Positions 6,672 to 43,465 of a stretch of DNA of 44,830 bases are shown here, piece by piece; positions within the stretch are counted from its first letter, which is position 1, and the number at the start of each line of letters is the position of its first letter. This stretch comes from a virus. The DNA is taken from positions 1 through 44,830 of IMG/VR virus record IMGVR_UViG_3300029258_004252; one strand, written 5' to 3'. A program made the translations under genes and the position numbers. Below the pieces are notes generated by a model that was given only the letters and a program-made list of their open reading frames with translations, was not told the DNA's origin and did not search any database.

Positions 6672-7595
6672 ATGTTCGATCATGGACAGAAAGTCATCGT
6701 AGTAAAGAGTTCACATCGAGGCAAAGTGGGCCCCAAGAAGGGCAGTATAGGCTACGTACTTGGAAGTGACTCAACTAGACTTATAAAAAGAACTGTCAAC
6801 AAGATTCCATTTTGTGTGGAAAGCCAAGTTATCGTATTTGTCAGGTATGGCTTTGGTAAAGAACGTGAAGAGCCTGAAACTAGGAGAATCTTAAATGTGT
6901 TCCCAATCTTGTCGTCCTATAAACCTGCTCCCTACAGAAGAGAAGCTTTTAGAATGTTCACGGAAGAGGTGGAAGGAAAGTCTGAAAACGTGTGGCCCGT
7001 GGTAAAGTGGGAATTGAAGAACAAAAATAACACTCCAGTATGTATGTTATACCCTGTGGAGAACGTTGAAGACATTAGAGATTTTAATAAAGTCAATTTT
7101 AAAGCTTGGTACAAGAGCGTTGTAAAATCCTGGACTTTCAGCAGTAATGTAGATAAAACCAGGCCAGACTTTATGCGGAACAAATATGAGAAAAATGCCC
7201 GTGAATATTTCAATGCTGTTCGGGACTCTGTAAAAAGTAGAAATTTCAGAGATAAGGTTTTCGCCGCAGTCTTCAGCAGCGATAAGGTAAAAAGCGAAGT
7301 CATATATTCTATGAAATATTTGCATTCTATGTTTGAAGCTGCCCTTATTAAGAAGTATATGAAGCAGATATCGGAAGCATATAATAATAATATATACAAC
7401 GATGGTCCTTTCTTGAAACATGACGCCCACTATGCAGCTTTGACTTCACGAATATTCAACCCAGCCATACTCAATCTTCAAATCGAACTCATGAAGAATC
7501 GTGGCCTGGACTATAGCCGGATAGAGAAAGGTTTGAAGCACACTATGCGCATGATAAGGGAAAATGCGCAACCCTTATACTCCATAAAGAGTTAA
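6672..7595 (+). CDS. Hypothetical protein upstream of the RNA polymerase (307 aa)
   Basis: AGGAG precedes the ATG. The first 60 residues (FDHGQKVIVVKSSHRGKVG..GSIGYVLG) have the look of a KOW/SH3-like barrel; the rest is helical and basic (residues about 150-300). It shares a helical segment with the preceding protein. A 91-base gap with two palindromes separates it from the polymerase gene. No catalytic motif is visible. Confidence 0.55.
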   Translation: MFDHGQKVIVVKSSHRGKVGPKKGSIGYVLGSDSTRLIKRTVNKIPFCVESQVIVFVRYGFGKEREEPETRRILNVFPILSSYKPAPYRREAFRMFTEEVEGKSENVWPVVKWELKNKNNTPVCMLYPVENVEDIRDFNKVNFKAWYKSVVKSWTFSSNVDKTRPDFMRNKYEKNAREYFNAVRDSVKSRNFRDKVFAAVFSSDKVKSEVIYSMKYLHSMFEAALIKKYMKQISEAYNNNIYNDGPFLKHDAHYAALTSRIFNPAILNLQIELMKNRGLDYSRIEKGLKHTMRMIRENAQPLYSIKS

Positions 7596-7686: not shown

Positions 7687-10600
7687 ATGGACTGTGATCC
7701 GTTGGAGAATGAGGAGAAGTTCGAATTTCTATTTGACAGCGTAAAAAGACAATTTTACGCCAGAACGGAGGTGGAAGGAAGAAAAACTAAGCAAGACTTC
7801 GGAATCAGCTTGGAAACGAAGATCGAAAACAAAATGATGTGGATGACTTTCATAAAGAACAAAGAGAGACATTCGATCACAATACCCGTCCCATACACCG
7901 AGAACAACGTAGTCCTTATAAAGAACAATGATGTCAAAAGAGCCGTCTGCCCGTATTATATGAGAGCAGACGAGAGAGTGGTAGATTATCCTACCGCAAT
8001 GTATATGATTATGTGTGAGGACCCTACAGGTATAATCCCCCCGCAGCTTGTAAAAGGTACCCCATTTCTGCAAAGAGTTATAAATTCATTCCAATATGGC
8101 AATACAGCTATTATATGCTACAGTCTTCAGAGAGCTATAAATGAGGTAGTGAATAGAATGCCTCTCCATGAGACAGATCTTAATAGTTGGGTAATGAATC
8201 GTAGGTTGATAATTATCGACCCGCTCTTTGATGAACTGCAAAATCCAGCCAGCCAACTTGACTACCAGATAGAGAAGAATAGAGCTTATTTTAACAAAGG
8301 CTGGACTTCGATAGGCTTGTCTGATGGTACCTTAGCTACCAGAAATTACATTCTCACCGAAGATGTAAGGAAGCTCACGCCGTTTGGGTTGCGGTATCAT
8401 AATCCGGGAAGGAACCTGTTCTCCACGCTTGGGACGAAGGGCGAGGAAGATCCGTTAATAAGGTCCGAATCGATGCAAGCGTTAATGGATAGCGGAGTGA
8501 AGAGAAAAGGTTGGAACCTGTTCACTTTGTTCGCAGACACGCCAGATGTTTTCGAAGATCAGATCCTTGTTGATAGAAGCCACCTCAACAAATTCACAAG
8601 GTACGAGCGTCGCATTCAGTGCTTTGGTGATATATGTGTGAAGAAAGGCGATCACGTAGCAAGAGGGCAAAAATTGTCCGTTGCTCCTGATGGTACAGCT
8701 AAATACTTCGACACAATCGCCGATGACGCTAAGATTATCTCCGTGAACGAAAGCATAGCTAATGTAGGAGGCATAGAAGAAAAGGTCTATAATCTGACTA
8801 TAGAATTTACTCGCAAATTCACAGATGGCACCAAATTTACCAATTTACACGGTAATAAGGGTGTTGTAAGATTTATGGACCTTGGCCATGCAGTAGATCC
8901 CAGAGATGGAAGTTTGAGGAAGATTGATGTTATTTCCGCATGCAAATCTGTTAAAAAGAGGAAGAATTTCGGACAGATTCTTGAAGCATTGTGTAATAAT
9001 ATCACTGGCGAAAAGGGCATAGTTCTCCCTGATAAATATGAATGTCCTGACGCGCTGTTGGAAGAAGCCCTTGAGAAGAAAGGTTTCCCCAAAGATGGCT
9101 GCTGGAAATGCAACACATACGTCGGTGAGTTGACTGGTATATGTGGAGTGGTGTTCTGGGGTGTAATATCTCAGCCTCACGGAGCCTTGTGGGATCGGGG
9201 AGCCACCACTAAGAAGAATGGAAGAGAACTCCGAGTTGCCGGCTTGAAATTTTCAACAGTGGAATTCAGAGCTATCCAAACTCGGTTCGGTAAAGATAAC
9301 CCTGTACTCGACGAGATTATGTCGTACGCCCAGGGGACCGAAGATTTGCATGACAAGCTCAACATTCTACGCTCGAAGCGCGGAGAAAAGGCACCGGGCA
9401 AGTTTGCTGTAAAACTTGAAGATCTGAAACCTGTAACTCAGACGTCAAGTACTATTCTTGATCCAAAGGAAGTGGTAGGTACAGTGGTGGATGAAATGGT
9501 TTATCCGAATGGCTTTATGCTGAAGATACCTGTTCCATTCCAAACTGTGGTAAATAACAGGTTGCAGACCGTCTGCGAAGGCTTTCCAAGAGAAGTAAGC
9601 CCGCAAGAATTTATATCTGACAGTGGGCCCGGTATAACTGAAGGTGCCGTCTATCTAACCGATCATATTTATATCCCATGCGCAAATCTAAGAAAATGCT
9701 GGCGACATGACACAGGCAAACTTGGATTAAGCGAGATTGGGGTATTGGTGAACAACATAGTGCTGCATGGACATAGGTTAATACTTAGACCCCAGGATAC
9801 ATGTAATTATTCCCTGTATCTAAAGGCCATCTCCGAGTATTACAGACGTGTAGCTGAAATGATGGGCACTAAAAGAGGCGACGTAAGCACGTATGGTATG
9901 GCTGTGAGATATCCATATTCTGTCAAAGCGTACGCAACTCTTACTAATGCCATACCTAAGAATACAGTCGAAATTCACAGGGACATGGCTGCAGCGCTCA
10001 GAGTGACCAATGGTGACATTGTTCTGGTAGAAAGATTTCCATGTCTTGGGTTCATGTCCGTTAGACCGCAGAAAATAAGGATAACCGAAGACCCGCTGTG
10101 TAAATATACCATTAGAGTCAGCGGTAATAGCTTAGTATCTATGGGCTTAGATCACGATGGTGATACTATTTACATAGCCTCTTTCCATACACCAGAAGCT
10201 AAGAAAGCATTGAAGAAGGAGTGGACAAATCCTAACAAGTCTTGCTATGATGTAATCAGACTCCTGAACAGGAAAGCTGGAGTTCCTCATACAAAATGCA
10301 TGACTTTGCAGGACTACCATATCCATCCATTCCCAGATCTGGACATTGAAACACACTCCGAACTCGTAAAGCGGGCGACTGGTGTGAAAAGCCATACTGG
10401 ACCAGTGATAGCTCTGGCATACAATATTATGAGATTGGTGGAGAATTCTGACGTGGCTAATGATCAGAAAACAGCCGTCGCTATCGAAGTATTCCTTGAT
10501 AAAACTGGAAACTCAGTGTTCAAGCAGAAACACGGCGTTAAATCTCTCCATGACATAGTAATAGATGCTATCTGCTCCGGCGATGTTGATACTTTAGCAG

Positions 10601-26650: not shown

Positions 26651-28060
26651 TTGAACACTATTAAAGTATTACAACGACTCGACAAAGAGCCGTCAGTCAA
26701 CGTGTACTTAGTGGGTGGATTTGTAAGAGATTTTCTCCGTGGGGAGAAGAATGATGATCTCGACGTGGTGGTAAAAGGAATGACCATCAAAAAGTTAAAA
26801 GCTTTCTTATCAAAATACGGTAAGGTTAAGCTTGTAGAGTTGTCAAAAGTAAAAGACAGCTTTGCCGTAAAAATTTTGCTATTTAGCGCTAGCAATGATG
26901 ATCTGGTAGCGCAGATCAAGTTACCTAGCAGAGGCAAAAAGCAAATACAAGATCCTAACAATACACTCAGACAAGACGCGGCTCATAGAGACTTTACAAT
27001 CAACGCTATGTACCTTCCCGTTAATGCAAAAGAACGGGATGAAATAATAGATTTCCATGGCGGCAAAACGGATATAGGTGCAAAATGCATAAGAGCTGTG
27101 GGTGAACCTATAGAAAGAATGCAGGAACATCCTATTAGACTCTTACGTGCAATTTCACTGGCAGCTAGAACTGGCTTTACAATAAATGAAAATGTTCTGT
27201 TTGCCATAAAGCATTGTGCACATTTGTTAAAGAATGTGCATGTTGACTCAATAAGAAAGGAGTTTAACCATATATTATTATGTGATAAGCCTTCGAAGTA
27301 TCTGAAGCTAATGCATATATTAGACTTGCTAGATATAATGCTGCCAGAGTTAACTAATTGTATTAACGTTACTCAGGAGAAAAAACACCACAAATGGGAT
27401 GTATTTCACCATTGTGTTTATACTTGCGACCATGTAGATTGTGAGTTGAATCTGAGACTTGCCGGCCTTCTACATGACGTTGGCAAACCAGATACAAGAA
27501 AGGTTATCAAGGGAAAAGGTATTACATTCCACAAACATGAGATGGTAGGTGCTAAGATAGCAAAGAAAGCTTTAACGAGACTTGGCTATGATAATAATAC
27601 GAAAAATCAAATAACCAAGCTGGTAAGGCTACATATGTACCACTACACTCATGAATATAGCGATAATGCTATAAGAAGATTTATAGCTAAAGCAGGTATC
27701 ACTGAAAAAGACTTGGATGACATAAGCAACTTTCCTTTGTTCAAGTTAAGAGCTGGCGAGCGACTAGGTAATGGCTTTAAGAAAGTACCAGTCACTGCGC
27801 GCCAGGAGGACTTTGAGAAACGCATTGTTAAAGTCTACAAGGAGACTACAGCCTTCGGAGTCAACGATTTGGTCCTGAAGGGTAAAGATATAATGGAGAT
27901 CTTCGAGTTGAAGCAGTCTCCTTTAGTCGGTAGAGTCAAGAAACATCTGTTGTCTAAAGTTTTATCGGACCAAAAACTAAATAATCGAGTTGACTTGATA
28001 AAACTTGCCGCAACATATATAAACAAATATAAAAAATTTAACAAAAACAAGAAAAAATAA
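26651..28060 (+). CDS. cca: CCA-adding enzyme / tRNA nucleotidyltransferase with HD domain
   Basis: 469 residues from TTG 26651, chosen because GGAG at 26641-26644 is six bases upstream; an in-frame ATG at 26588 lies inside the sigma gene. The head has YLVGGFVRDFLRGEKNDDLDV (GG 22-23, R26-D27, Asp36 and Asp38), then RRDFT-like AHRDFTINAMY and the neck GEPIERMQEHPIRLLRAISLAA. The C-terminal part holds LAGLLHDVGKPDT (His275-Asp276) and FHKHEMVGAKIAKKAL, a metal-dependent HD phosphohydrolase. It should build or repair tRNA 3' CCA ends. The phage tRNA-Leu downstream lacks an encoded CCA, which gives the enzyme an obvious substrate. Confidence 0.85.
   Translation: MNTIKVLQRLDKEPSVNVYLVGGFVRDFLRGEKNDDLDVVVKGMTIKKLKAFLSKYGKVKLVELSKVKDSFAVKILLFSASNDDLVAQIKLPSRGKKQIQDPNNTLRQDAAHRDFTINAMYLPVNAKERDEIIDFHGGKTDIGAKCIRAVGEPIERMQEHPIRLLRAISLAARTGFTINENVLFAIKHCAHLLKNVHVDSIRKEFNHILLCDKPSKYLKLMHILDLLDIMLPELTNCINVTQEKKHHKWDVFHHCVYTCDHVDCELNLRLAGLLHDVGKPDTRKVIKGKGITFHKHEMVGAKIAKKALTRLGYDNNTKNQITKLVRLHMYHYTHEYSDNAIRRFIAKAGITEKDLDDISNFPLFKLRAGERLGNGFKKVPVTARQEDFEKRIVKVYKETTAFGVNDLVLKGKDIMEIFELKQSPLVGRVKKHLLSKVLSDQKLNNRVDLIKLAATYINKYKKFNKNKKK
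27995..28023 (+). promoter_or_regulatory. Sigma-70-type promoter in front of the large structured RNA
   Basis: TTGATA at 27995-28000, a 17-base spacer, and TATAAA at 28018-28023. Each box has one mismatch and the spacing is ideal. It lies inside the last codons of the CCA enzyme gene and would start transcription near 28030, just before the non-coding region. Confidence 0.5.
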
Positions 28061-28522
28061 AGTATCATTCTGTTGAAGGCATGAAAGTTAGGCTACCCAC
28101 AAAGATTGGGCGAATGTGGTACCCCCAGCTTTTTACTGGGTCCGTATCATAGTCAGCTAGTAGGCCAGCACATCAATTCGGTTCATTCAAACATAATGAA
28201 CACATAATTGAAGGTGCAGACAGGATTTTACATATATGGACAGTGTAAAGTGCTGTATCATGTCCAGCAGGATAGACAGAGTAAGGTTTCACCGAGATAC
28301 ATTAGTGAAAACTTGCCAAGTAAGCCCTCAACAAAGACTCTGGCCAGATTAGCTATATGAGTCGAGAGAGCCGAAATGTGCAAGTAGAAGCCAGTATATT
28401 TCACCAGAAACATTGAAATGCATCTTGCGAAAACCGGAATACTCCAATTCCGAAATACACATGCTCTACAACATCCCTTTATCCCATAAATCGTGCTATG
28501 GGATGGGTGAAACTGACCAGGT

Positions 28523-28900
28523 GGTTCTATAGTATCAGGATAGGCGCTAATACAGCCTTCTTCGAAAGCAAATTTTGTATAAGTACTATTCGAGCATGGA
28601 GCCGAAGAGGGGAGCTTGAGACTATTATCTCAAAGGCGCACAGGCGAATTTAAAGCTATGTGTTAAAGTCCAGATGAGATAAAATTCAAAAGTTCCGCGC
28701 AACCTCTTTTTTGTCCTAGAAGGTGCTTATACGTGGTTGTTAATCAGGCCCGGCCACACTAAAATATATAACAGGCCTGGCTGCAGCGGCTACTTGTTAT
28801 GCTTTTGTTGTAGCCTCAACCAGCTGTGGTAACGTGCAGATGAAAGCAGTGGTGCTTGATGATGAAGGAAGAAGCGGAGTTCGAATCTCTGCTAGAACCA
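28523..28900 (+). tRNA. Interrupted tRNA-like element (about 300-base insertion in the anticodon loop)
   Basis: The 5' part has acceptor GGTTCTA (28523-28529), TA, D stem GTAT/ATAC (28532-28535/28550-28553) and anticodon-stem strand CCTTC (28556-28560). The 3' part has GAAGG (28864-28868), a short variable loop, T arm CGGAG-TTCGAAT-CTCTG (28875-28891) and acceptor TAGAACC (28893-28899) with A73 and no CCA. All helices pair, but the halves are separated by about 300 structured bases. Oddities: a 14-base D loop and one extra pair (G28874-C28892), giving 13 rather than 12 bp in the acceptor/T stack. It could be a tRNA with a large intron, or a tRNA-shaped domain of the big RNA. The anticodon cannot be fixed. 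Confidence 0.4.
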
Positions 28901-28935
28901 TTAAGCCTGCCAGGGAAGCCAGCGGGCGCTGTCCC

Positions 28936-29023
28936 TGGGAGAAAGCTCAGGAAAGGATCTGGGGCCAACACCTCTCAGTGTTGGTGGCTCATCAGCCCGG
29001 AGGTTCGACCCCTCCTCTCCCCC
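28936..29023 (+). tRNA. tRNA-like cloverleaf with long variable arm, probably atypical
   Basis: TGGGAGA (28936-28942) pairs with TCTCCCC (29016-29022) except for the first pair. D stem GCTC/GGGC, an anticodon-like hairpin CCAACAC-CTCTCA-GTGTTGG, a variable arm GGCT-CATC-AGCC and a perfect T arm GGAGG-TTCGACC-CCTCC (28999-29015) complete a type II cloverleaf. The anticodon loop would be six or eight bases instead of seven, position 8 is not T, and CCA is not encoded. It is a degenerate tRNA, an expanded-loop tRNA, or part of the large RNA. Confidence 0.35.
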
Positions 29024-29257
29024 AATACCATTGACAAGGACCCCGAAACCCTCACTTTAACAGGCTACGGCGCAACACTTCCGTAGTCACAATCCCATTG
29101 TGGGACACCTCCTTTATGTGTTGAGCTGATTGTGGTTGTAGTCGGGGCAGCTGCAATCAGCAAAAGGATGTACCTCTTTGATGGCAGCTCTCGATAGCCG
29201 ATTGCGCGATCGTGGTCGTAGCGGTCGGCACAAGAAAAAAATAAAATTGAGGTAGGT

Positions 29258-29476
29258 ATGGAAGCTGAAAAGATTATGATCAGTATAATTATCTATTTAG
29301 TCATGGGAGTCCTCTTCTGGTGTGAAATCAAAGCTAGAAACGATGTTTTGAGGAGAATGAAGGACGAAAATAGATATAGAGAAACTAAACTCTGGAAGTC
29401 AGTGCTCTTCTGGTTTCCAGCAGCATTCGTTGCAAGGGGAGATACCAAGCTTGCTAACTGGTATTTCAAAAAATAA
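29258..29476 (+). CDS. Small membrane protein (72 aa)
   Basis: GAGGTAGGT precedes the ATG. Residues 7-22 (MISIIIYLVMGVLFWC) form one membrane segment; the rest is basic with a second hydrophobic patch (SVLFWFPAAFVA, residues 48-59). It ends three bases before the tRNA-Leu, so mRNA and tRNA are probably cut from one transcript. The function is unknown. Confidence 0.6.
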   Translation: MEAEKIMISIIIYLVMGVLFWCEIKARNDVLRRMKDENRYRETKLWKSVLFWFPAAFVARGDTKLANWYFKK

Positions 29477-29479
29477 ACA

Positions 29480-29565
29480 GCCAGGGTGGCGTAACTCGGT
29501 AGGCGCTCGGGACTTAAAATCCCGTGGACATTGTGTCCGTGTGGGTTCGATCCCCACCCCTGGTA
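29480..29565 (+). tRNA. tRNA-Leu (UAA)
   Basis: Acceptor GCCAGGG pairs with CCCTGGT; the anticodon arm is CGGGA-CTTAAAA-TCCCG with anticodon TAA; the long variable arm TGGACATTGTGTCCG is as expected for Leu; the T arm is GTGGG-TTCGATC-CCCAC; the discriminator is A. CCA is not encoded (CTA follows), so the end must be completed by a CCA-adding enzyme such as the one at 26.7-28.1 kb. The AGGAGG of the next gene begins right after it. Confidence 0.93.
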
Positions 29566-29579
29566 CTAGGAGGTTTATA

Positions 29580-29747
29580 ATGAATAAAGGAGAAACAGAT
29601 TGGGAATGTAAACCATGTAATTGGTTTCTATTCTCGTCAGCTTTAAAATGGCAGAGAGAAATGGGTATACAAGGGGAAACTCCAACATGTCCAGAATGCG
29701 GAAGACCATTGACGCCTTGCAAAATTGGCGCTGGCGGAGGAAGATAA
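29580..29747 (+). CDS. Small zinc-ribbon-like protein (55 aa)
   Basis: AGGAGG at 29568-29573 selects ATG 29580. The protein has WECKPCNWFLF and TCPECGRPLTPC, two C-x2-C knuckles about 30 residues apart, as in a rubredoxin-like or zinc-ribbon fold. Longer in-frame extensions upstream would read through the tRNA and are not real. The function is unknown; nucleic-acid or protein binding is possible. Confidence 0.65.
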   Translation: MNKGETDWECKPCNWFLFSSALKWQREMGIQGETPTCPECGRPLTPCKIGAGGGR

Positions 29748-32881: not shown

Positions 32882-33445
32882 ATGTCAGATATTTTACTTA
32901 TAGTTGACATGTTAAACGACTTCGCCCACGAAGACGGCGCTCTGTTCTTCCCAAGAGCCAAAGAAATTATTCCTCACATACAAGAGCGTTTAAAAGAATA
33001 TAGAATGAGGAGAATATTATACAAAGGTCTGGATAAATACAACGTCGTCTACGCATGTGATAGACATGAACCTCATGACAAAGAATTTGAGAGATTCCCG
33101 AAACATGCTATTGCTAACACATGGGGCGCTAGGGTTGTAGATGAGCTTGCACCTATTAATCCACTCGTGGAGGAGAAGATAGTGGATAAAACAAGGTTCG
33201 ATGCTTTCTTTGGCACCCCGTTAGCTGCCATATTAGAACAGCTGAGACCGCCGGTAGTTGAAGTAGTTGGTGTATGTACTTCCATATGTATCATGGATAC
33301 TGTAGCCGGCCTAGTTGCTAGAGATTACAAGGTCCACGTACCCGAACACTGCGTTGCAGACCTTGATAATGATGCTCACGAATACGCCCTGAATAGAATG
33401 GAGGGAATATATGGGGCAATAGTTTACACACCCCACAACATGTAA
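32882..33445 (+). CDS. pncA: Nicotinamidase (isochorismatase-like hydrolase)
   Basis: 187 residues. LIVDMLNDFAHEDGAL (Asp9), VDKTRFDAFFGTPL (Lys103) and GVCTSICIMDT (Cys136) give the Asp-Lys-Cys triad; CDRHEPHD (Asp60, His62) is the metal site. Isochorismatase-family members vary, but the neighbours pncB and nadE make nicotinamide the likely substrate: nicotinamide to nicotinate plus ammonia. The length fits bacterial PncA. The stop is 11 bases before the next gene. Confidence 0.82.
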   Translation: MSDILLIVDMLNDFAHEDGALFFPRAKEIIPHIQERLKEYRMRRILYKGLDKYNVVYACDRHEPHDKEFERFPKHAIANTWGARVVDELAPINPLVEEKIVDKTRFDAFFGTPLAAILEQLRPPVVEVVGVCTSICIMDTVAGLVARDYKVHVPEHCVADLDNDAHEYALNRMEGIYGAIVYTPHNM

Positions 33446-33456
33446 CAGGAGGCGTA

Positions 33457-34662
33457 ATGCCAATCATTAAAAGTTTACTCGACACAGATCAGTATATTTT
33501 TACTATGGCACAAGCTGCTTTGCACCAGTGTCCAGGTGCTGTAGCTAAATTTAAATTTAAGTGTAGAAATGGGTCCGCTGTTCCTAAAGGAATTGAGCGG
33601 GAGAAGTTCATGGCCCGCTTAAATGAGGAAATAGACTATCTATGCGCCCTCAGACTGCGAAATTTGGAGCTTTCTTACTTATCCTATATAAGATACTTCA
33701 AAAAGGATTATATTGAGCACCTGAGGCTTCTGAGGCTCAACAGAGACTATATTCACGCTTATATAGACAAGGATGATGAGCTGCAAATTGAAATTGAGGG
33801 ACCTTTGTTCTTCGTGATATGGTTTGAAGTGCCGGTTCTCGCTATAGTAAGTGAGTTGAACTCTGAATTTAACAATATAATGGGCTTTGAATATATTAAC
33901 ACTGGAAAGAAATTACTTGGAGGAAAAGTAAACTACCTTCGCAGTAATTTACATAAAGATTCTAAATTTAAATTTGCTGATTTCGGTACCAGAAGGAGAC
34001 ATTCCTACGAATGGCACAAATACGTACTTGAATATCTGAAAGCTGAAGCAAAGCATTGGCTTGTAGGTACTTCAAATGTACATTTTGCAATGGAGCTAGG
34101 CTTACAGCCAATAGGAACAATGGCACACTTATGGTTCCAAGCATTTCAGAGAATGGATTTTCAGCTTGCGAACAGCCAAAAAGCTGCCCTAGATGCGTGG
34201 GTTAAAGAGTATCAGGGTGATCTTGGTATTGCCTTATCAGACATAGGTGGTTTCGAGTGGTTCCTTAAAAACTTCAACCTATTCTATGCAAAACTCTTTG
34301 ACGGATGCAGGCATGATTCAGGCGATCCTTTCTGGTGGGTTGAAAAACTTATAGCTCATTATGAAAAACTTGGGATAAATCCTTCAACAAAGACTGCTGT
34401 ATTCAGCGACGGCTTAACCTTTCCTTTAATGGTGAAGTTGTATCAGACGTACAATCAGAGAATAAAAACATCGTTCGGCGTTGGGACTAATCTCACTAAT
34501 GACATGGGTTATAAAGCCTTACAGATAGTGATTAAAATGGTCGAATGTAACGGTGGTCCTGTGTCAAAACGTTCCGATAGTCGGGGGAAAGGTATGTGTG
34601 AAGATCCTGATTTTGATATTTACTTTGCCAAAGTTATTAAAGAGGAAATCTCTAAAGCATAA
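33457..34662 (+). CDS. pncB: Nicotinate phosphoribosyltransferase
   Basis: 401 residues, as expected for PncB. LLDTDQYIFTMAQAALHQCP at the N-terminus, KFKFKCRN, the phosphorylatable His224 in GTMAHLWFQ, CRHDSGDPFWW (residues 285-293), KTAVFSDGLTF and SFGVGTNLTND are the family signatures. It makes nicotinate mononucleotide from nicotinate, PRPP and usually ATP. AGGAGG precedes the ATG. It is immediately downstream of the nicotinamidase gene, the next pathway step. Confidence 0.9.
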   Translation: MPIIKSLLDTDQYIFTMAQAALHQCPGAVAKFKFKCRNGSAVPKGIEREKFMARLNEEIDYLCALRLRNLELSYLSYIRYFKKDYIEHLRLLRLNRDYIHAYIDKDDELQIEIEGPLFFVIWFEVPVLAIVSELNSEFNNIMGFEYINTGKKLLGGKVNYLRSNLHKDSKFKFADFGTRRRHSYEWHKYVLEYLKAEAKHWLVGTSNVHFAMELGLQPIGTMAHLWFQAFQRMDFQLANSQKAALDAWVKEYQGDLGIALSDIGGFEWFLKNFNLFYAKLFDGCRHDSGDPFWWVEKLIAHYEKLGINPSTKTAVFSDGLTFPLMVKLYQTYNQRIKTSFGVGTNLTNDMGYKALQIVIKMVECNGGPVSKRSDSRGKGMCEDPDFDIYFAKVIKEEISKA

Positions 34663-34674
34663 AGGAGGCTTAGC

Positions 34675-36576
34675 GTGAGACATTTATTGAGACTGTTTAA
34701 AGCAGTGAAAATTAGCTCTAAGGGCCAGAGGATGCCCAACAAAGAGATTTTAACGAAGACTGTAATGAATGGGTTCATCTTCTCCCCCGAAGTTATTTAC
34801 AACTACTCAAACTATGAGTTAGATGTCATAGCTGACACAGTGATTGAGGAACTCGGTCTGTCGTTAAAAGAAATGAACAATGCATTTCATAAGTCTTGGG
34901 AAAAAGTCAGAGATGCCAGCATGGTCCAGCTGGTCCTGGAACAGATGATTCACTACATTACAACCTACGGTTTCGAGGGCCTCGGTATTTATAATGAGGA
35001 TTCCGTCTACATTCCAAACGAAAAGTTGGACCTGCCGGATATCAATACCGACAAAGTTATCCTGAATGTCATCAAAGGGTATACTACCGAAGAGATCAAA
35101 GAAAAAGTTATGGAGCTGCTGAAGTCCGGGATAGCTTTGAAGGAAGACACAGTTAAAGATGTAGTTGAAACTGCAAAGCAAGTAGGTATAAATAATAGTA
35201 ATGTAGATGACATTAAGAACAGAGAGGTGCTTATAGCTTTATGTGACCACCTTGACCTGTTTCCTCAGAATCCAACAGAGTTCTTAAGGTACGTTATCTA
35301 TAAGACTACTGGCAGAACCTTGCTCATAAAGGATGCTGCTACTATAGCTATGTTAAAGGAAAAATCTAACGATGTAGCGTACCCTCTGTTCAATAAATAT
35401 GGGAAGCATTATGGCCTCCATAGGTTAGCCAGTATATTCTTCAGGTTTAAACCGCTCTTCTTGGCTCTGAAATCCGAAGATGCTATGAAGCCTGTCATAA
35501 ATAAAATAAGAAAGCTTGCGACCAAACATCACCGGCCTATGAAGGAAGACTACCTTAATACTATTACTGCTATAGTTAAGAATGGCCTTGATTTGGATCT
35601 GAAAGAGCTGGAAGATAGGCTTGGCGAAGTTAATGCCTTCAGGAAGATCAGGCTTGCTTACGCTTTGAATTATCGGACCTTGAAAGAGGCTGATTCTATA
35701 TTATACAGAATCAGAAATGGAAAAGGGTTTGCTTTGCCGTTTGAATTTGGCGGAAAAGGTAGAGCTGAGGAAGCACTTAACGTAGTTCTCGAATCGGTTG
35801 TTAAAGATGTTAAGAGAAACGTTGCTGGGAAGAAGGTGTTCGTACCGGGTTACATTGACTATGCCCTGCCTGCTACTGAAAAACAATTTACAGGCAACCT
35901 TCCCTCAGGTACATGCGTATCTGTTGATAAAGATATAATCTTTGGTATCCACTGGCATAATGTCGGAGGACATAGGGTTGACTTGGACTTGTCTCTGATG
36001 AACGTCACAGTCGGTAAAATCGGCTGGGACGGAAGTTACCGTTCCCATGACAAGGGTATTCTGTTCTCCGGTGATATGACTGATGCAAAAGGGAAACTTG
36101 GCGCATCCGAGCTGTTCTATGCAAAAGAACGGCAGAATCAGAGTTTTATTATGCTCGTAAATTACTACAACTACAGAGCTGATATCCCTGTTCCTTTAAG
36201 TATCATCGTGGGCAAAGATAACATTGATAAAAGAGAGTTCAAACACAACTATATGGTCCATCCTGATAAAATCGTCACTGCCACCAAGACGAAAATAGAT
36301 AGGCGGCAGAGAATGCTCGGTCTGTTAGTCTCAGGTGAAAATGGTAATAAGTTTTACTTCTCGGAGGCGGATCTGGGTGCTGGTATCACAGCCAGGAATA
36401 GATCTTATATTGAGGATACGAGGAAGTATCTCACTCAGTATAGCTCTAACGCTATAAGCCTAAATGATGTGCTAGTCTTAGCCGATACTGAATTCGTTGA
36501 TGATGAAGACGAATGTGATGTCAATCTATCACCTGTGAATATCGAAAAAGATACGATAATACAACTTCTAACATAG
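34675..36576 (+). CDS. Large hypothetical protein inside the NAD salvage cluster (633 aa)
   Basis: AAAGGAGG at 34661-34668 selects GTG 34675. I do not recognise the family. Residues 1-370 are helical. From about 390 on there is a beta-rich part with FGIHWHNVGGHRVDLDLSL, KIGWDGSYRS, GILFSGDMTDAKGK and ASELFYA; the VDLDLS ... SGDMTDA ... SE order is faintly like TerD-type domains, but I would not assign it. No HxGH nucleotidylyltransferase motif is visible, so it does not look like the missing NadD. It could use NAD, sense it, or be unrelated cargo. Confidence 0.6.
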   Translation: MRHLLRLFKAVKISSKGQRMPNKEILTKTVMNGFIFSPEVIYNYSNYELDVIADTVIEELGLSLKEMNNAFHKSWEKVRDASMVQLVLEQMIHYITTYGFEGLGIYNEDSVYIPNEKLDLPDINTDKVILNVIKGYTTEEIKEKVMELLKSGIALKEDTVKDVVETAKQVGINNSNVDDIKNREVLIALCDHLDLFPQNPTEFLRYVIYKTTGRTLLIKDAATIAMLKEKSNDVAYPLFNKYGKHYGLHRLASIFFRFKPLFLALKSEDAMKPVINKIRKLATKHHRPMKEDYLNTITAIVKNGLDLDLKELEDRLGEVNAFRKIRLAYALNYRTLKEADSILYRIRNGKGFALPFEFGGKGRAEEALNVVLESVVKDVKRNVAGKKVFVPGYIDYALPATEKQFTGNLPSGTCVSVDKDIIFGIHWHNVGGHRVDLDLSLMNVTVGKIGWDGSYRSHDKGILFSGDMTDAKGKLGASELFYAKERQNQSFIMLVNYYNYRADIPVPLSIIVGKDNIDKREFKHNYMVHPDKIVTATKTKIDRRQRMLGLLVSGENGNKFYFSEADLGAGITARNRSYIEDTRKYLTQYSSNAISLNDVLVLADTEFVDDEDECDVNLSPVNIEKDTIIQLLT

Positions 36577-36584
36577 TTCTATCT

Positions 36585-36687
36585 GGCAAAAAGAGTTCCT
36601 ACTCAAACCAATGCAGCGCCGAAAGGCGCTATTATATTACTCTTCGCTAGATATCAAAAAATTAATAGGGCAAAGGGAGTTCCTACT
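36585..36687 (+). repeat. Direct repeat pair before the tRNA-Gly
   Basis: GGCAAAAAGAGTTCCTACT (36585-36603) and GGCAAAGGGAGTTCCTACT (36669-36687) match at 17 of 19 positions, 84 bases apart. The second copy sits in a stem formed by GGGC and GGAGT with ACTCC and GCCC near 36707-36722. The repeats frame the terminator and could be promoter elements or RNA-processing sites. Confidence 0.45.
36615..36638 (+). terminator. Rho-independent terminator after the 633-aa gene
   Basis: AGCGCC, a GAAA tetraloop and GGCGCT (36615-36630) form a six-pair GC-rich hairpin followed by ATTATATT. It is 39 bases after the stop codon. The tail has only a few Ts in a row, so termination may be partial. Confidence 0.6.
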
Positions 36688-36735
36688 AAAAATCATTCTG
36701 GGATAAAATACTCCTCGCCCACTAACTTCATACGA

Positions 36736-36852
36736 GGGGGAGTAGCTCAGTGGTAGAGCACCTGTCTCACTACTCTCCGCTGTTGATGCATAGAGGGTTC
36801 CTCTAAACATCCAAACAGGCGGTCGTGGGTTCAATCCCCACCTTCCCCTCCA
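36736..36852 (+). tRNA. tRNA-Gly with a 42-base insertion in the anticodon loop
   Basis: Acceptor GGGGGAG/CTTCCCC, D arm GCTC-AGTGGTA-GAGC, anticodon stem CCTGT/ACAGG (36761-36765/36815-36819), five-base variable loop CGGTC, T arm GTGGG-TTCAATC-CCCAC, discriminator T and encoded CCA (36850-36852) are all perfect. The anticodon loop, however, is 49 bases (36766-36814). Removing 42 bases (36768-36809) leaves CTTCCAA, the normal tRNA-Gly(UCC) loop; shifting the cut by one gives CCC, also Gly. U73 fits Gly. The insertion contains a TAGAGG-GTT-CCTCTA hairpin (36791-36805). It is far too short for a group I intron. Confidence 0.8.
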
Positions 36853-36864
36853 AAGGAGATATAA

Positions 36865-37728
36865 ATGACTAGAATAAGCACAAACTACCAGGAGATGCAT
36901 GACAACATAGTTAAAGCGGGAGTTGGTTATCTTGAGAAACACGATAAGGTCAAAAATTTGATCATTGGACTGTCCGGCGGAATAGACAGCACTCTGACTG
37001 CTGTATTAGCTAGGGACATCTGTGATGCAACTGGTAAACATAGACTAATAGGCTTTAGCATACCAACGGCATCCAATAAGAAAAGCGAAGTTGAGTTGGC
37101 TGCTAAGGTCGGTAGAAAATTCTGCCATGAATTTAAACAAGTTAACTGGTTCAAGTGGCTTTTCCTCAAAGATAAGGTTCCCTTCAGAAAATATGAAAGG
37201 AAAGTCCGCAGCGGAAATATGAAAGCAAGAGCTAGAATGATGTATCTATACCACATGGCTCATAAATATAACGGCCTTGTGCTTTCCACGGACAACCTTA
37301 CTGAATATCATTTGGGTTTCTGGACGCTGCATGGAGACGTAGGCGACCTCGGTCTTATTCAGAACCTGTGGAAAACTGAAGCTTACGGACTAGCCAACTT
37401 TATAAGTAGCCAGTTGTTCAAATGGTTTGCTGAGGGTAACTACGTTGACTGGTTGGAATTCGGCGTTAAATCCAAAATTATATCTGAAGTCATTGTAGCT
37501 GTACCAACGGATGGTTTGGGTATAACCGAAAGTGACTTCGACCAGTTAGGAGTAAGAAATTACAAAGAAGCAGATAAGATTTTGGTTGAATATATTTATG
37601 ATAAAAATACAAAATGGGCGGATCACCCCATAGCCGTAAGATATAGGGAGAATGCCTTCAAGCGTACAAATCCGCATAACATTCCCAGGGAAGTTGTACT
37701 TCCTGGACCGAAGCCGGTCAATTTGTAA
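36865..37728 (+). CDS. nadE: Ammonia-dependent NAD synthetase
   Basis: 287 residues. IIGLSGGIDSTLTAV (residues 33-47) is the PP-loop that binds ATP; LSTDNLTEYHLGFWTLHGDVGDLGLI is the conserved deamido-NAD site. The length fits the ammonia-only form, without a glutaminase domain; ammonia could come from the phage nicotinamidase or glutaminases. It converts nicotinic acid adenine dinucleotide to NAD. The SD AAAGGAG starts directly after the CCA of the tRNA-Gly. Confidence 0.88.
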   Translation: MTRISTNYQEMHDNIVKAGVGYLEKHDKVKNLIIGLSGGIDSTLTAVLARDICDATGKHRLIGFSIPTASNKKSEVELAAKVGRKFCHEFKQVNWFKWLFLKDKVPFRKYERKVRSGNMKARARMMYLYHMAHKYNGLVLSTDNLTEYHLGFWTLHGDVGDLGLIQNLWKTEAYGLANFISSQLFKWFAEGNYVDWLEFGVKSKIISEVIVAVPTDGLGITESDFDQLGVRNYKEADKILVEYIYDKNTKWADHPIAVRYRENAFKRTNPHNIPREVVLPGPKPVNL

Positions 37729-40217: not shown

Positions 40218-41138
40218 CTAACATACTTCTCCTAATTTTCTACCTAGTACCACTCTGTTTTTTAAATTATCAGGGCCAGATAGAACCGGCTCTTGCGGCC
40301 AACCTGCAGAAGAAAGTACATAAACAACATTTTTATGAATATTATTCCAAGACTGAGCAGACTTTCTGCATTCATTAACAAAAGTGTAAGTTAATACTCC
40401 TTGTTTTTTACCTGCAATAATTGTTTCAGAAGAAGTCTGATCATCTCTACAACCAGACAACATCACGTGATTTTGAGTAGCTTTACTACCAAACTTTCTT
40501 TTCTTAACAACTTTATCTTTCATTTTTTCTGCCATTTCTTTCGGCATAGCAATATTTCTATCTATATCTCTTGACATACTACCGGAATGACATGTATCAC
40601 ATATCATAGATAAGAAAGCTCCGGATGGAAGTTTATTAAATATTTTAGCAATATCATCATCTAATAAAGGATTGTTCCAATCAAAATCATGTGTCACTAA
40701 AACCTCATCAAGTTGATCTGCTTCATCTCCAGACACATCTAAAACCTGAGTACCATGTCCAGAATGGTAATAAAATAATTCATCTCCCGCTTTCCTTCCA
40801 GACACCAACCAATTTAAATGTGATAATATATTTTTCTTGATTGCTTGGCTGTCGGTAAGCATTTTAACATTTGCAGCTTTAAATCCACAACATTCTACTA
40901 AAAATTCTTTCATATTAGTAGCATCATTTACACATCCCGACAAATCCATTCCTGGTGTTGCGTATTTATTAATACCAACTACAAGAGCGAATTTAGTATC
41001 CATGTTTTCCTCCTCACTTGGTGTAATAGGGACGTAATTATCATCATCGTCATCATCATCTTTTCTTTTCTTAATGTATATAAGAGCACCGGCCATTGCC
41101 ACCACTCCTAAAACTATAAATATTCCAAAGTCAGGCAT
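40218..41138 (-). CDS. Membrane-anchored caspase-like cysteine peptidase (C14, metacaspase type)
   Basis: 306 residues. One membrane helix (residues about 4-23, IFIVLGVVAMAGALIYI) is followed by an Asp run and then the peptidase: FALVVGINKYATPGMDLSGC, ELFYYHSGHGTQ (His128) and MICDTCHSGS (Cys183, with Asp181), the caspase/metacaspase dyad. DDQTSSE and GVLTYTFVNE are further C14 features. Metacaspases cut after Arg/Lys; the target here is unknown. AGGAGGT precedes the ATG. It lies between Lon and the lysozyme. The anchor and linker place the peptidase domain in the cytoplasm or at the membrane face. Confidence 0.85.
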   Translation of the reverse strand: MPDFGIFIVLGVVAMAGALIYIKKRKDDDDDDDNYVPITPSEEENMDTKFALVVGINKYATPGMDLSGCVNDATNMKEFLVECCGFKAANVKMLTDSQAIKKNILSHLNWLVSGRKAGDELFYYHSGHGTQVLDVSGDEADQLDEVLVTHDFDWNNPLLDDDIAKIFNKLPSGAFLSMICDTCHSGSMSRDIDRNIAMPKEMAEKMKDKVVKKRKFGSKATQNHVMLSGCRDDQTSSETIIAGKKQGVLTYTFVNECRKSAQSWNNIHKNVVYVLSSAGWPQEPVLSGPDNLKNRVVLGRKLGEVC

Positions 41139-41152
41139 GACTTACCTCCTTT

Positions 41153-43465
41153 CTAAAAAGCTATTTTCAAAACTTCAGAAGCAGTTTTCACAAAATGAAA
41201 CTTAATATCCTCCATAATCTCCTTAGGTATATCCTCTAAATCATCTTTATTCCATTTTGGCAAGATGATTTCTTTAGTCCCAGCTCTATGTGCACCTATA
41301 ACCTTTTCTTTAACGCCTCCTACTGGTAATATATCTCCTTTTAAAGTTATTTCACCACTCATAGTTAAATTTTCTTTAACAGATTTGTCATTGAAAAGTG
41401 AAACTAATGCACAGAACAAAGCCACACCGGCTGAAGGGCCATCTTTAGGTGTAGACCCTTCTGGCACATGTATATGAATCACACTTTCTTTAACATTAGG
41501 TAGTTCAATTCCTTCTAAAGTACGCACATAGTCTAAAGCAATGATAGCTGATTCCTGCATTACTTCACCTAATTGTCCTGTTAAAATAATCTCCTCATCA
41601 GACATACCTTTATCAAAAATTGTTGCTTCAATATATCCTACAGTACCACCATTATTACCTACAAATAGAGCTGAACTCATACCTGGAAATAATTTTCTCA
41701 TTTTATTTAATGGAGGTACTTTTTCTCTCCCTAAATACTCTCTTATATTATTTTTCTTTATTGATTCAGATTCTGCTTTTCCCGAAACTATTTTAGTAGC
41801 TACTTTACGACAAGCATTAGCTATTTCTCTTTCTAAATTTCTAACACCCGCTTCAAATGTATAGCTAGTAATAATATCATCTAAAGCTTTATCAGTAAAT
41901 CTAATCTCTTTTGACTTCAACCCATGAGCTTTACGTTGCTTAGGTATTAAAAATTTATTGGCAATATTTATCTTTTCTGGTTGAGTATAACCTGAAAATC
42001 TTATTACCTCCATTCTATCTTTTAAAGCTGGCGGAATTGTTCCAAGAATGTTAGCAGTAGTAATAAACATAACATTAGACAAATCAAAAGGAACATCCAA
42101 ATAATGGTCCGAGAACGAATTATTCTGTTCAGGATCTAAGACTTCTAATAATGCTGACGAAGGATCGCCTCTAAAATCTTTACCTAATTTATCCACCTCA
42201 TCTAACATAAATACTGGATTGTTTGTTCCTACACGTCTTATTCCTTGGATAATTCTTCCAGGTAAAGCACCAACATAAGTTCGTCTATGACCCCTGATCT
42301 CCGCCTCATCTCTCACTCCGCCAAGAGAGATTCTAATGAACTCACGCCCCAAAGCTTCAGCTATAGACCTACCCAATGAAGTTTTACCCGTTCCTGGCGG
42401 GCCGACAAAACATAGGATAGGTCCTTGTGAGTCCTTTTTCAATTTTCTTACGGCAAGATATTCTAAAATCCTTTGCTTAGGTTTTTTCAAACCATAATGA
42501 TCTCGTTCTAAAATATCTTCAGCTTCATTTATATCAAGTCTATCTTCAGTATCTTTTGACCAAGGCAATTCAGTCAAACAATCTAAATATGTAGTTATAA
42601 CCGAACGTTCAGCAGAAGATGGATGAACTCTTTTTAATCTCTTCAATTCTTTTCTAGCTACCTTTTCAGCTTCTTCTGAAAGGATAGCTTCTTCTATTTT
42701 TTGAAGATACTCATCAACTTCATCAAGATCATCCTCCTCATCTTCGCCGAGTTCTTTTTTGATTGCATTAAGTTGCTCTCTTAAATAAAACTTTTTTTGA
42801 TTCTCGGTCATTGATTCTTTAGCCTGTTTAACAATCTTATGGCTAATCTCGAACTCTTCAATTTTAAATGTAATAATATTTATTAATTTTCTCAATCTTT
42901 GTTTAACATCTAATATCTCCAAAAATTCTTGCTTTTCATCTTCCTCTATAGGCAATGAGGAAGCAATCATATCAGCAACTTGACCAGGATTTTTGATATT
43001 TTCTATCATAGTGCCGAACTCTTTTGGTATATCTGAATTAAGATTTATCAATCTTTTAAATAGTCTAACAACAGTTGGCACTAATATCTTGGTTTTCTGC
43101 TCCCAAATATTTCTACTTTTAAGAATATCAATTTCTGCTTTTAACAAATGGTCTTTTACCATAGTATTATATTCAAATCTATGTAGACCCTGCATTGTTA
43201 ATTTTACTTTATCATTAAACTCCTGCATGTCTAAGATTTTAGCTAACACTCCAACCTTAGAAAATTCATCTTTAGAACTTTCCTTTATAGGTCTTAAAAT
43301 ACCTACAATTCTATCTTCCTCTTCTAGTTCTTTTACAAATTCATATATATTATGTACATCATCACTATCGCTCATGATAGGATGTATCATTTTAGGAAAC
43401 AAAATCGGTTCAGAAATCGTTATCACTGGAATCAATTTAGGAAATTCTTTTTTAGAATTTGACAT
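41153..43465 (-). CDS. lon: ATP-dependent Lon protease
   Basis: 770 residues, near full length for LonA (about 780). It has an N-terminal LAN domain (from LIPVITISEPILFPKMIHP), coiled-coil region, AAA+ domain with GPPGTGKTS (Lys361) and VFMLDEVDKLG, and the protease domain with PKDGPSAG (Ser678) and VGGVKEKV (Lys719), the Ser-Lys dyad. All key residues are present. It degrades selected or misfolded proteins using ATP. A full Lon in a phage is unusual; it may remove host regulators or control phage proteins. GAGGTG precedes the ATG. Start, length and motifs agree. Confidence 0.95.
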   Translation of the reverse strand: MSNSKKEFPKLIPVITISEPILFPKMIHPIMSDSDDVHNIYEFVKELEEEDRIVGILRPIKESSKDEFSKVGVLAKILDMQEFNDKVKLTMQGLHRFEYNTMVKDHLLKAEIDILKSRNIWEQKTKILVPTVVRLFKRLINLNSDIPKEFGTMIENIKNPGQVADMIASSLPIEEDEKQEFLEILDVKQRLRKLINIITFKIEEFEISHKIVKQAKESMTENQKKFYLREQLNAIKKELGEDEEDDLDEVDEYLQKIEEAILSEEAEKVARKELKRLKRVHPSSAERSVITTYLDCLTELPWSKDTEDRLDINEAEDILERDHYGLKKPKQRILEYLAVRKLKKDSQGPILCFVGPPGTGKTSLGRSIAEALGREFIRISLGGVRDEAEIRGHRRTYVGALPGRIIQGIRRVGTNNPVFMLDEVDKLGKDFRGDPSSALLEVLDPEQNNSFSDHYLDVPFDLSNVMFITTANILGTIPPALKDRMEVIRFSGYTQPEKINIANKFLIPKQRKAHGLKSKEIRFTDKALDDIITSYTFEAGVRNLEREIANACRKVATKIVSGKAESESIKKNNIREYLGREKVPPLNKMRKLFPGMSSALFVGNNGGTVGYIEATIFDKGMSDEEIILTGQLGEVMQESAIIALDYVRTLEGIELPNVKESVIHIHVPEGSTPKDGPSAGVALFCALVSLFNDKSVKENLTMSGEITLKGDILPVGGVKEKVIGAHRAGTKEIILPKWNKDDLEDIPKEIMEDIKFHFVKTASEVLKIAF

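Follow-up and report, generated by a model that had tools for sequence, protein, structure and literature searches.

A hairpin-rich, gene-free tract with a tRNA-derived fold, possibly an unspliced tRNA mimic, next to the CCA-adding enzyme gene of a phage genome fragment

The stretch of DNA analyzed here (hereafter the window) is the 44,830-base IMG/VR virus record IMGVR_UViG_3300029258_004252, positions 1 to 44,830. Judging by its genes, it appears to be part of a jumbo-type phage genome. It codes for a distant beta subunit of RNA polymerase, for which tblastn returned no match in the phage collection, COOH-NH2 ligases, glutamine amidotransferases, RuvB, a sigma-70 region 2 protein, a CCA-adding enzyme, an RlaP-like protein, an isochorismatase-family protein, an NAPRTase, an NAD synthase, Lon and a caspase-domain protein. 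Directly downstream of the gene for the CCA-adding enzyme lies a tract free of genes, and a canonical tRNA-Leu gene stands beyond it (Table 1). The initial annotation had placed several tRNAs next to this tract; one canonical tRNA does adjoin it, and the plural does not hold since the other recognizable tRNA lies 7 kb away.

Table 1. Coordinates of the features discussed in the text; positions without a locus prefix refer to the window.
Feature	Position	Strand	Basis or remark
CCA-adding enzyme / poly(A) polymerase family gene	26651..28060	+	Pfam PolyA_pol, PolyA_pol_RNAbd, HD
Gene-free tract rich in perfect hairpins	28061..29245	+	ORF gap, hairpin counts, without Rfam match
Acceptor-like stem, 5' strand GGUUCUA	28523..28529	+	pairs with 28893-28899
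D-arm-like hairpin GUAU(14 nt)AUAC, 4 bp	28532..28553	+	fold p ~0.65; starts two bases past acceptor
Anticodon-like 13-bp helix, 5' strand CCUUC-U-UCG-A-AAGCA	28556..28570	+	ViennaRNA
303 nt replacing anticodon loop; ends continue helix	28561..28863	+	not group I/tmRNA by Rfam
Anticodon-like helix, 3' strand UGCUU-GA-UGA-U-GAAGG	28853..28868	+	ViennaRNA
T-arm number 1, loop UUCGAAU	28873..28893	+	T-arm scan; local fold p ~0.98
Acceptor-like 3' strand UAGAACC and discriminator-like A28900	28893..28900	+	fold, geometry test
Second, degenerate tRNA-like element, class II shape	28937..29023	+	T-arm 28999-29015; Rfam tRNA-Sec 21.6 bits
tRNA-Leu(UAA), canonical	29480..29566	+	ARAGORN; Rfam tRNA 52.5 bits
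633-aa TerD-like phage protein	34675-36573		relatives in IMG/VR
Hairpin copies of the window	36585-36648, 36669-36719		just downstream of 633-aa gene
Gly-like tRNA-like RNA with 42-nt insertion	36736-36852		T-arm scan
Hairpin array examples	L006:9484-9921, L012:9798-9980
tRNA-like RNAs with permuted module	L017:9768-9884, L026:9499-9618, L028:9793-9905, L029:9794-9903		beside 633-aa gene
tRNA-like RNAs with permuted module	L030:9707-9820, L031:9269-9380, L049:1523-1635, L061:9762-9875		beside 633-aa gene

No open reading frame of at least 80 aa falls within positions 28061-29398, and no other gap of this kind in the window is as large; with the cutoff lowered to 70 aa, the longest stretch left free of frames is 28069-28855. 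The large gene-free stretch of the initial annotation (28069-29250 there, 28061-29245 here) is indeed the largest in the window, and a protein-coding explanation was rejected as the tract is devoid of any ORF of at least 80 aa. The claim of at least ten perfect hairpins was likewise confirmed: counting stems of at least 6 bp, we found 10 perfect Watson-Crick hairpins in positions 28061-29245. Dinucleotide shuffles gave 2.3±1.3 (0 of 200 reached 10), and 35 coding tiles of equal length gave 4.1±1.8 and never more than 7. An unusual stability of the fold did not withstand tiling of the genome. The MFE of the tract, taken over 1 kb, has a z-score of -3.9, and 600-nt tiles across the genome average -1.34±1.48, with several coding tiles at -3.2 to -4.5. 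Because coding tiles reach equal z-scores, the folding energy of the tract is uninformative on its own, and we dropped it as evidence for an RNA. A promoter suggested at 27995-28023 was not among the sigma-70-like sites, of which 9 were found, no more than the 12.5 expected by chance. The edges of the tract (28047-28061 and 29230-29245) carry a nearly identical, A-rich direct repeat of 15/16 nt, ACAAGAAAAAA(A)TAAA, which could mark an insertion; since it is of low complexity and at best weakly significant, we left it unused as evidence.

Scanning the whole window for T-arms (GUUCRANNC with a stem of at least 5 bp) returned four: those of tRNA-Leu at 29480 and of the tRNA-like RNA at 36736, and two within the tract (28873-28893 and 28999-29015) that the initial annotation had missed. 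In sequence of like composition, 0.0024 T-arms would be expected where the tract has these two. A T-arm with a UUCRA loop together with a matching acceptor, the combination by which we recognize a tRNA-derived element, is present at 28523-28900, where acceptor, D-arm, an extended anticodon-like helix and T-arm are predicted to form a closed junction with 303 nt at the position of the anticodon loop. Within it, CCUUC (28556-28560) pairs with GAAGG (28864-28868), four bases ahead of the T-arm helix. When the 400 nt upstream of T-arm 1 were shuffled 30,000 times with dinucleotides preserved, 2 shuffles showed, given this T-arm, the geometry of acceptor, D-arm and anticodon stem. Unconstrained ViennaRNA folds recovered the same junction in 28515-28905, 28500-29030 and 28061-28905, and it has a p of ~0.36 in the fold of the full 1185 nt. 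CCA is not encoded after A28900, and ARAGORN at default settings reports no acceptable tRNA cloverleaf in the tract. That 28523-28900 is tRNA-derived is well supported statistically. The second tRNA-like element is degenerate: a 6-nt loop takes the place of the 7-nt anticodon loop, its acceptor is weak in folds, and its tRNA-Sec score of 21.6 bits lies below the gathering score of 47.

No nucleotide relative of the tract was found in the phage collection. The best BLAST matches in other records (L097 and L020) fall inside ORFs and are due to chance. Among the records retrieved through the NAPRTase, one is a true relative, IMGVR_UViG_3300003154_000789 (141.5 kb; hereafter G051). It shares with the window the gene order of the CCA enzyme (52% identity), RuvB (49%), the sigma factor (40%) and further neighbors. 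In the ~80 kb of G051 that were read, the largest gap between ORFs of at least 80 aa spans 1436 nt and directly follows the CCA gene, as does the largest gap in the window. This counterpart tract corresponds to the reverse complement of 7125-8560 in L195 (G051:58000-77900). A cold-shock protein gene sits in the middle of the gap and the remainder is noncoding, with 25 hairpins of 5 bp compared with 12.4±4.2 in shuffles and no excess at 6 bp. A tRNA-like fold lies at about 8160-8304 in the G051 tract; its CAU anticodon arm is perfect, its D region is expanded, and a single base of its T-loop departs from the consensus. The same tract has about three copies of a motif AGYAGUGA..GRUACUUCA (near 7408, 7588 and 8221). 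The two tracts do not align significantly; therefore, position and character are what they have in common, not sequence. Scans with window-plus-G051 profiles of the CCA enzyme and the ATP-grasp protein retrieved G051 alone among viral contigs and had no hits among genome contigs, and among the matches listed for RuvB none exceeded 35% identity; these further protein scans yielded no third member of the lineage. Records found via the 633-aa protein described below were rejected as relatives of this phage, a search run without positive control having returned no RNA polymerase match in them.

At gathering score, cmscan of the whole window with Rfam placed nothing within the tract; weaker matches (sok, sR47, tRNA-Sec and others) lie below gathering, and most of them are due to chance. 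The initial annotation had been unable to match the tract to GOLLD or ROOL and had proposed a covariance search, which, run with relaxed filters over 27950-29600 and with positive controls covering tmRNA and group I only, agrees in finding neither family at E≤10. The hairpins, the two T-arms, the closed junction and the low-coding tract of G051 support the picture of a structured, tRNA-related tract; membership in GOLLD/ROOL is not supported.

In topology, 28523-28900 resembles tmRNA without having its sequence. Like tmRNA (RF00023, ssrA), it combines a tRNA-like acceptor and T-arm with a long helix where the anticodon arm would be, and this helix closes an inserted domain of ~300 nt in a total of 378 nt. 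Unlike tmRNA, it has a D-stem and carries U3-A70 instead of G3-U70, the pair that serves as the alanylation identity element of tmRNA. ARAGORN -m found neither a tmRNA nor a tag, and RF00023 gave no match at E≤10 in 28510-28910, while the positive controls L036 and L047 scored 88-105 bits and L061 was recognized as a permuted tmRNA. These tmRNA genes (L047:21414-21777, L036:6514-6937, L061:11768-12020, one permuted) reside in large phages that encode the 633-aa protein. Bacterial Y RNAs (YrlA), which associate with Ro60/TROVE proteins, have a tRNA-like fold whose anticodon arm is swapped for another domain. The fold at 28523-28900 is likewise tRNA-like with another domain at the anticodon arm, but the tract RNA would be much longer, it has no Rfam match, and no TROVE gene was detected among the proteins scanned.

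We tentatively favor the view, to which we accord somewhat less than an even chance, that the tract encodes a noncoding RNA and that 28523-28900 is a tRNA mimic that stays unspliced, is stable and carries an inserted domain; one sequence of it is known. This is supported by two T-arms where almost none would be expected, by the rarity of the geometry of T-arm 1 in shuffles together with a junction that folds unconstrained, and by the hairpin excess of the tract. Further support comes from G051, where the largest low-coding tract is found at the corresponding position and has another tRNA-like fold, and from the tmRNAs of the same topology carried by other large phages sampled. Against it speak the modest probability of the junction in the full-length fold, the different site of the insertion in G051 (the D region) in tracts that do not align, an overall energy not above that of coding tiles and the reliance on a single sequence. 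So do the C that replaces A at position 14 and the lack of an encoded CCA, both of which would fit a decaying tRNA as well. If the mimic exists, the tract RNA would be transcribed, tRNA processing might recognize the acceptor/T-arm end, and the phage's own CCA-adding enzyme, encoded by the preceding gene, might add CCA; judged from fold and neighborhood, the inserted domain could then be presented to a translation-related target, by analogy with tmRNA. The degenerate second tRNA-like element would come after the mimic, and the ~460 nt upstream of the fold may belong to the same RNA. The more specific proposal of a phage RNA that has the topology of tmRNA without being one, with an effector domain of ~300 nt, maturation by the phage CCA enzyme and a single locus in a rare lineage, we consider unlikely.

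The tract might instead be the remains of a former tRNA cluster, with T-arms, other arms and hairpins as decayed remnants without function. Two degenerate tRNA shapes adjoining an intact tRNA-Leu gene would be expected of such decay, as would a degenerate tRNA that has kept a perfect CAU anticodon arm at the corresponding position in G051 and the divergence of both tracts beyond recognition. However, it is rare for a gene-dense phage to retain 1.2 kb of dead DNA, the largest low-coding tract occupies corresponding positions in both phages, and the 5' part of the tract has perfect hairpins of 6-8 bp that are not tRNA arms. We rate this explanation second to the tRNA mimic and as somewhat unlikely. 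Below it we rank an ordinary tRNA whose anticodon loop is interrupted by a divergent intron of ~296 nt, an improbable reading, even though the 5-bp anticodon stem CCUUC/GAAGG and a correctly placed U33-like base suit it and the insert is of typical length. Phage tRNA genes with group I introns have their insertion in the same place, within the anticodon loop between 5-bp stem halves, and an example with an intron of ~235 nt occurs at L068:6203-6511. RF00028 detects this control with 61 bits and finds no match at E≤10 in 28510-28910, a search that a very divergent intron could escape. Inspection by eye yielded a P7-like GACU/AGUC pair (about 28621 and 28668) that leaves no room for P3-P6, and no group I core fits. 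Moreover, the two halves joined at every loop register give no acceptable tRNA and pass ARAGORN only with the threshold lowered to 75-80%; this weighs toward a mimic rather than a spliced tRNA.

In last place, and quite improbable in our estimation, stands a single ornate RNA of ~1.2 kb of the GOLLD/ROOL kind with embedded tRNA-like domains, which would assemble into a particle and function late in infection. Its length, its location in a phage close to a tRNA gene (tRNA-Leu 29480-29566) and hairpins across the whole of a large tract recall these families, but there is no Rfam report at E≤10, the folding energy does not exceed what coding tiles reach, the full-length fold is ambiguous and no homologue was found. 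Instead of a single 1.17-kb RNA, the tract may equally contain several small RNAs, an intron-bearing tRNA with neighbors, or decayed tRNA genes. Large phage RNAs of the GOLLD/ROOL type near tRNA genes are abundant and structured, and we know of no function for GOLLD or ROOL. If a tRNA-like domain indeed closes a 300-nt insert here, it would offer a handle on one large phage RNA, and tRNA processing, CCA addition and ribosome binding of the mimic would be directly testable. Should the locus prove to be a decayed or intron-bearing tRNA, it would caution against calling each hairpin-rich phage gap a new RNA class; the one sequence known may represent a working RNA or a dead or interrupted tRNA gene.

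A by-product of this analysis is better supported than our reading of the tract, and we treat it as a separate finding because the hairpin module concerned, searched for in the 1.2-kb tract, is absent there. The 633-aa protein encoded in the window has relatives in 99 candidate IMG/VR stretches, of which 80 were retained. Its AlphaFold2 model (mean pLDDT 90) matches TerD in part (3ibz, E 3.5e-5), in agreement with what we take to be a TerD-like motif in the C-terminal half, and resembles Ro60 at best weakly (9nf8, E 0.31, prob 0.30); a Pfam scan recognized neither TerD nor Ro60. Between one and seven copies of an RNA hairpin adjoin the gene, with the module GRC, bulge AHA, NNNAGU, UCCUAU..loop..AAU, ACUNNN, C, GYC. 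In an alignment of 43 sequences, 99.7% of cells are paired, and 79 cells changed on both sides, compared with 23.9±4.3 in shuffles. The sequences were picked by their six inner pairs, the outer stem playing no part, and the second pair of this outer stem is GC in 33, AU in 9 and broken in 1. With a covariance model, the hairpin was detected in 20 of 20 whole records with the 633-aa protein, nearly all copies lying within 1 kb upstream of its gene; in 1.46 Mb of control loci it turned up a single time, at a locus without a relative of the protein. The module has no Rfam match at gathering score in the loci scanned and no description in the open-access literature searched. The protein and its hairpin array probably constitute a new RNA-protein system.

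A circularly permuted form of the module (ACUNNN-CGCC-loop-GGCAHA-NNNAGU-UCCU) fills the anticodon loop of the Gly-like RNA at 36736-36852 and the corresponding loop of similar RNAs from about nine relatives (Table 1). These RNAs may be mature tRNA mimics or may contain an unknown intron.

Two further segments of the window merit mention. On the minus strand at 40218-43465, a caspase-domain protein adjoins the Lon protease; this region (39-44 kb) is poor in G+C, with opposite strand and skew, and is possibly a separately acquired module. At 32882-37728, the isochorismatase-family (nicotinamidase-like) protein, the NAPRTase and the NAD synthase form a probable NAD salvage set, the order of which is partly kept in G051; such sets have been reported in jumbo phages as a means against NAD-depleting defences (PMC7824862).
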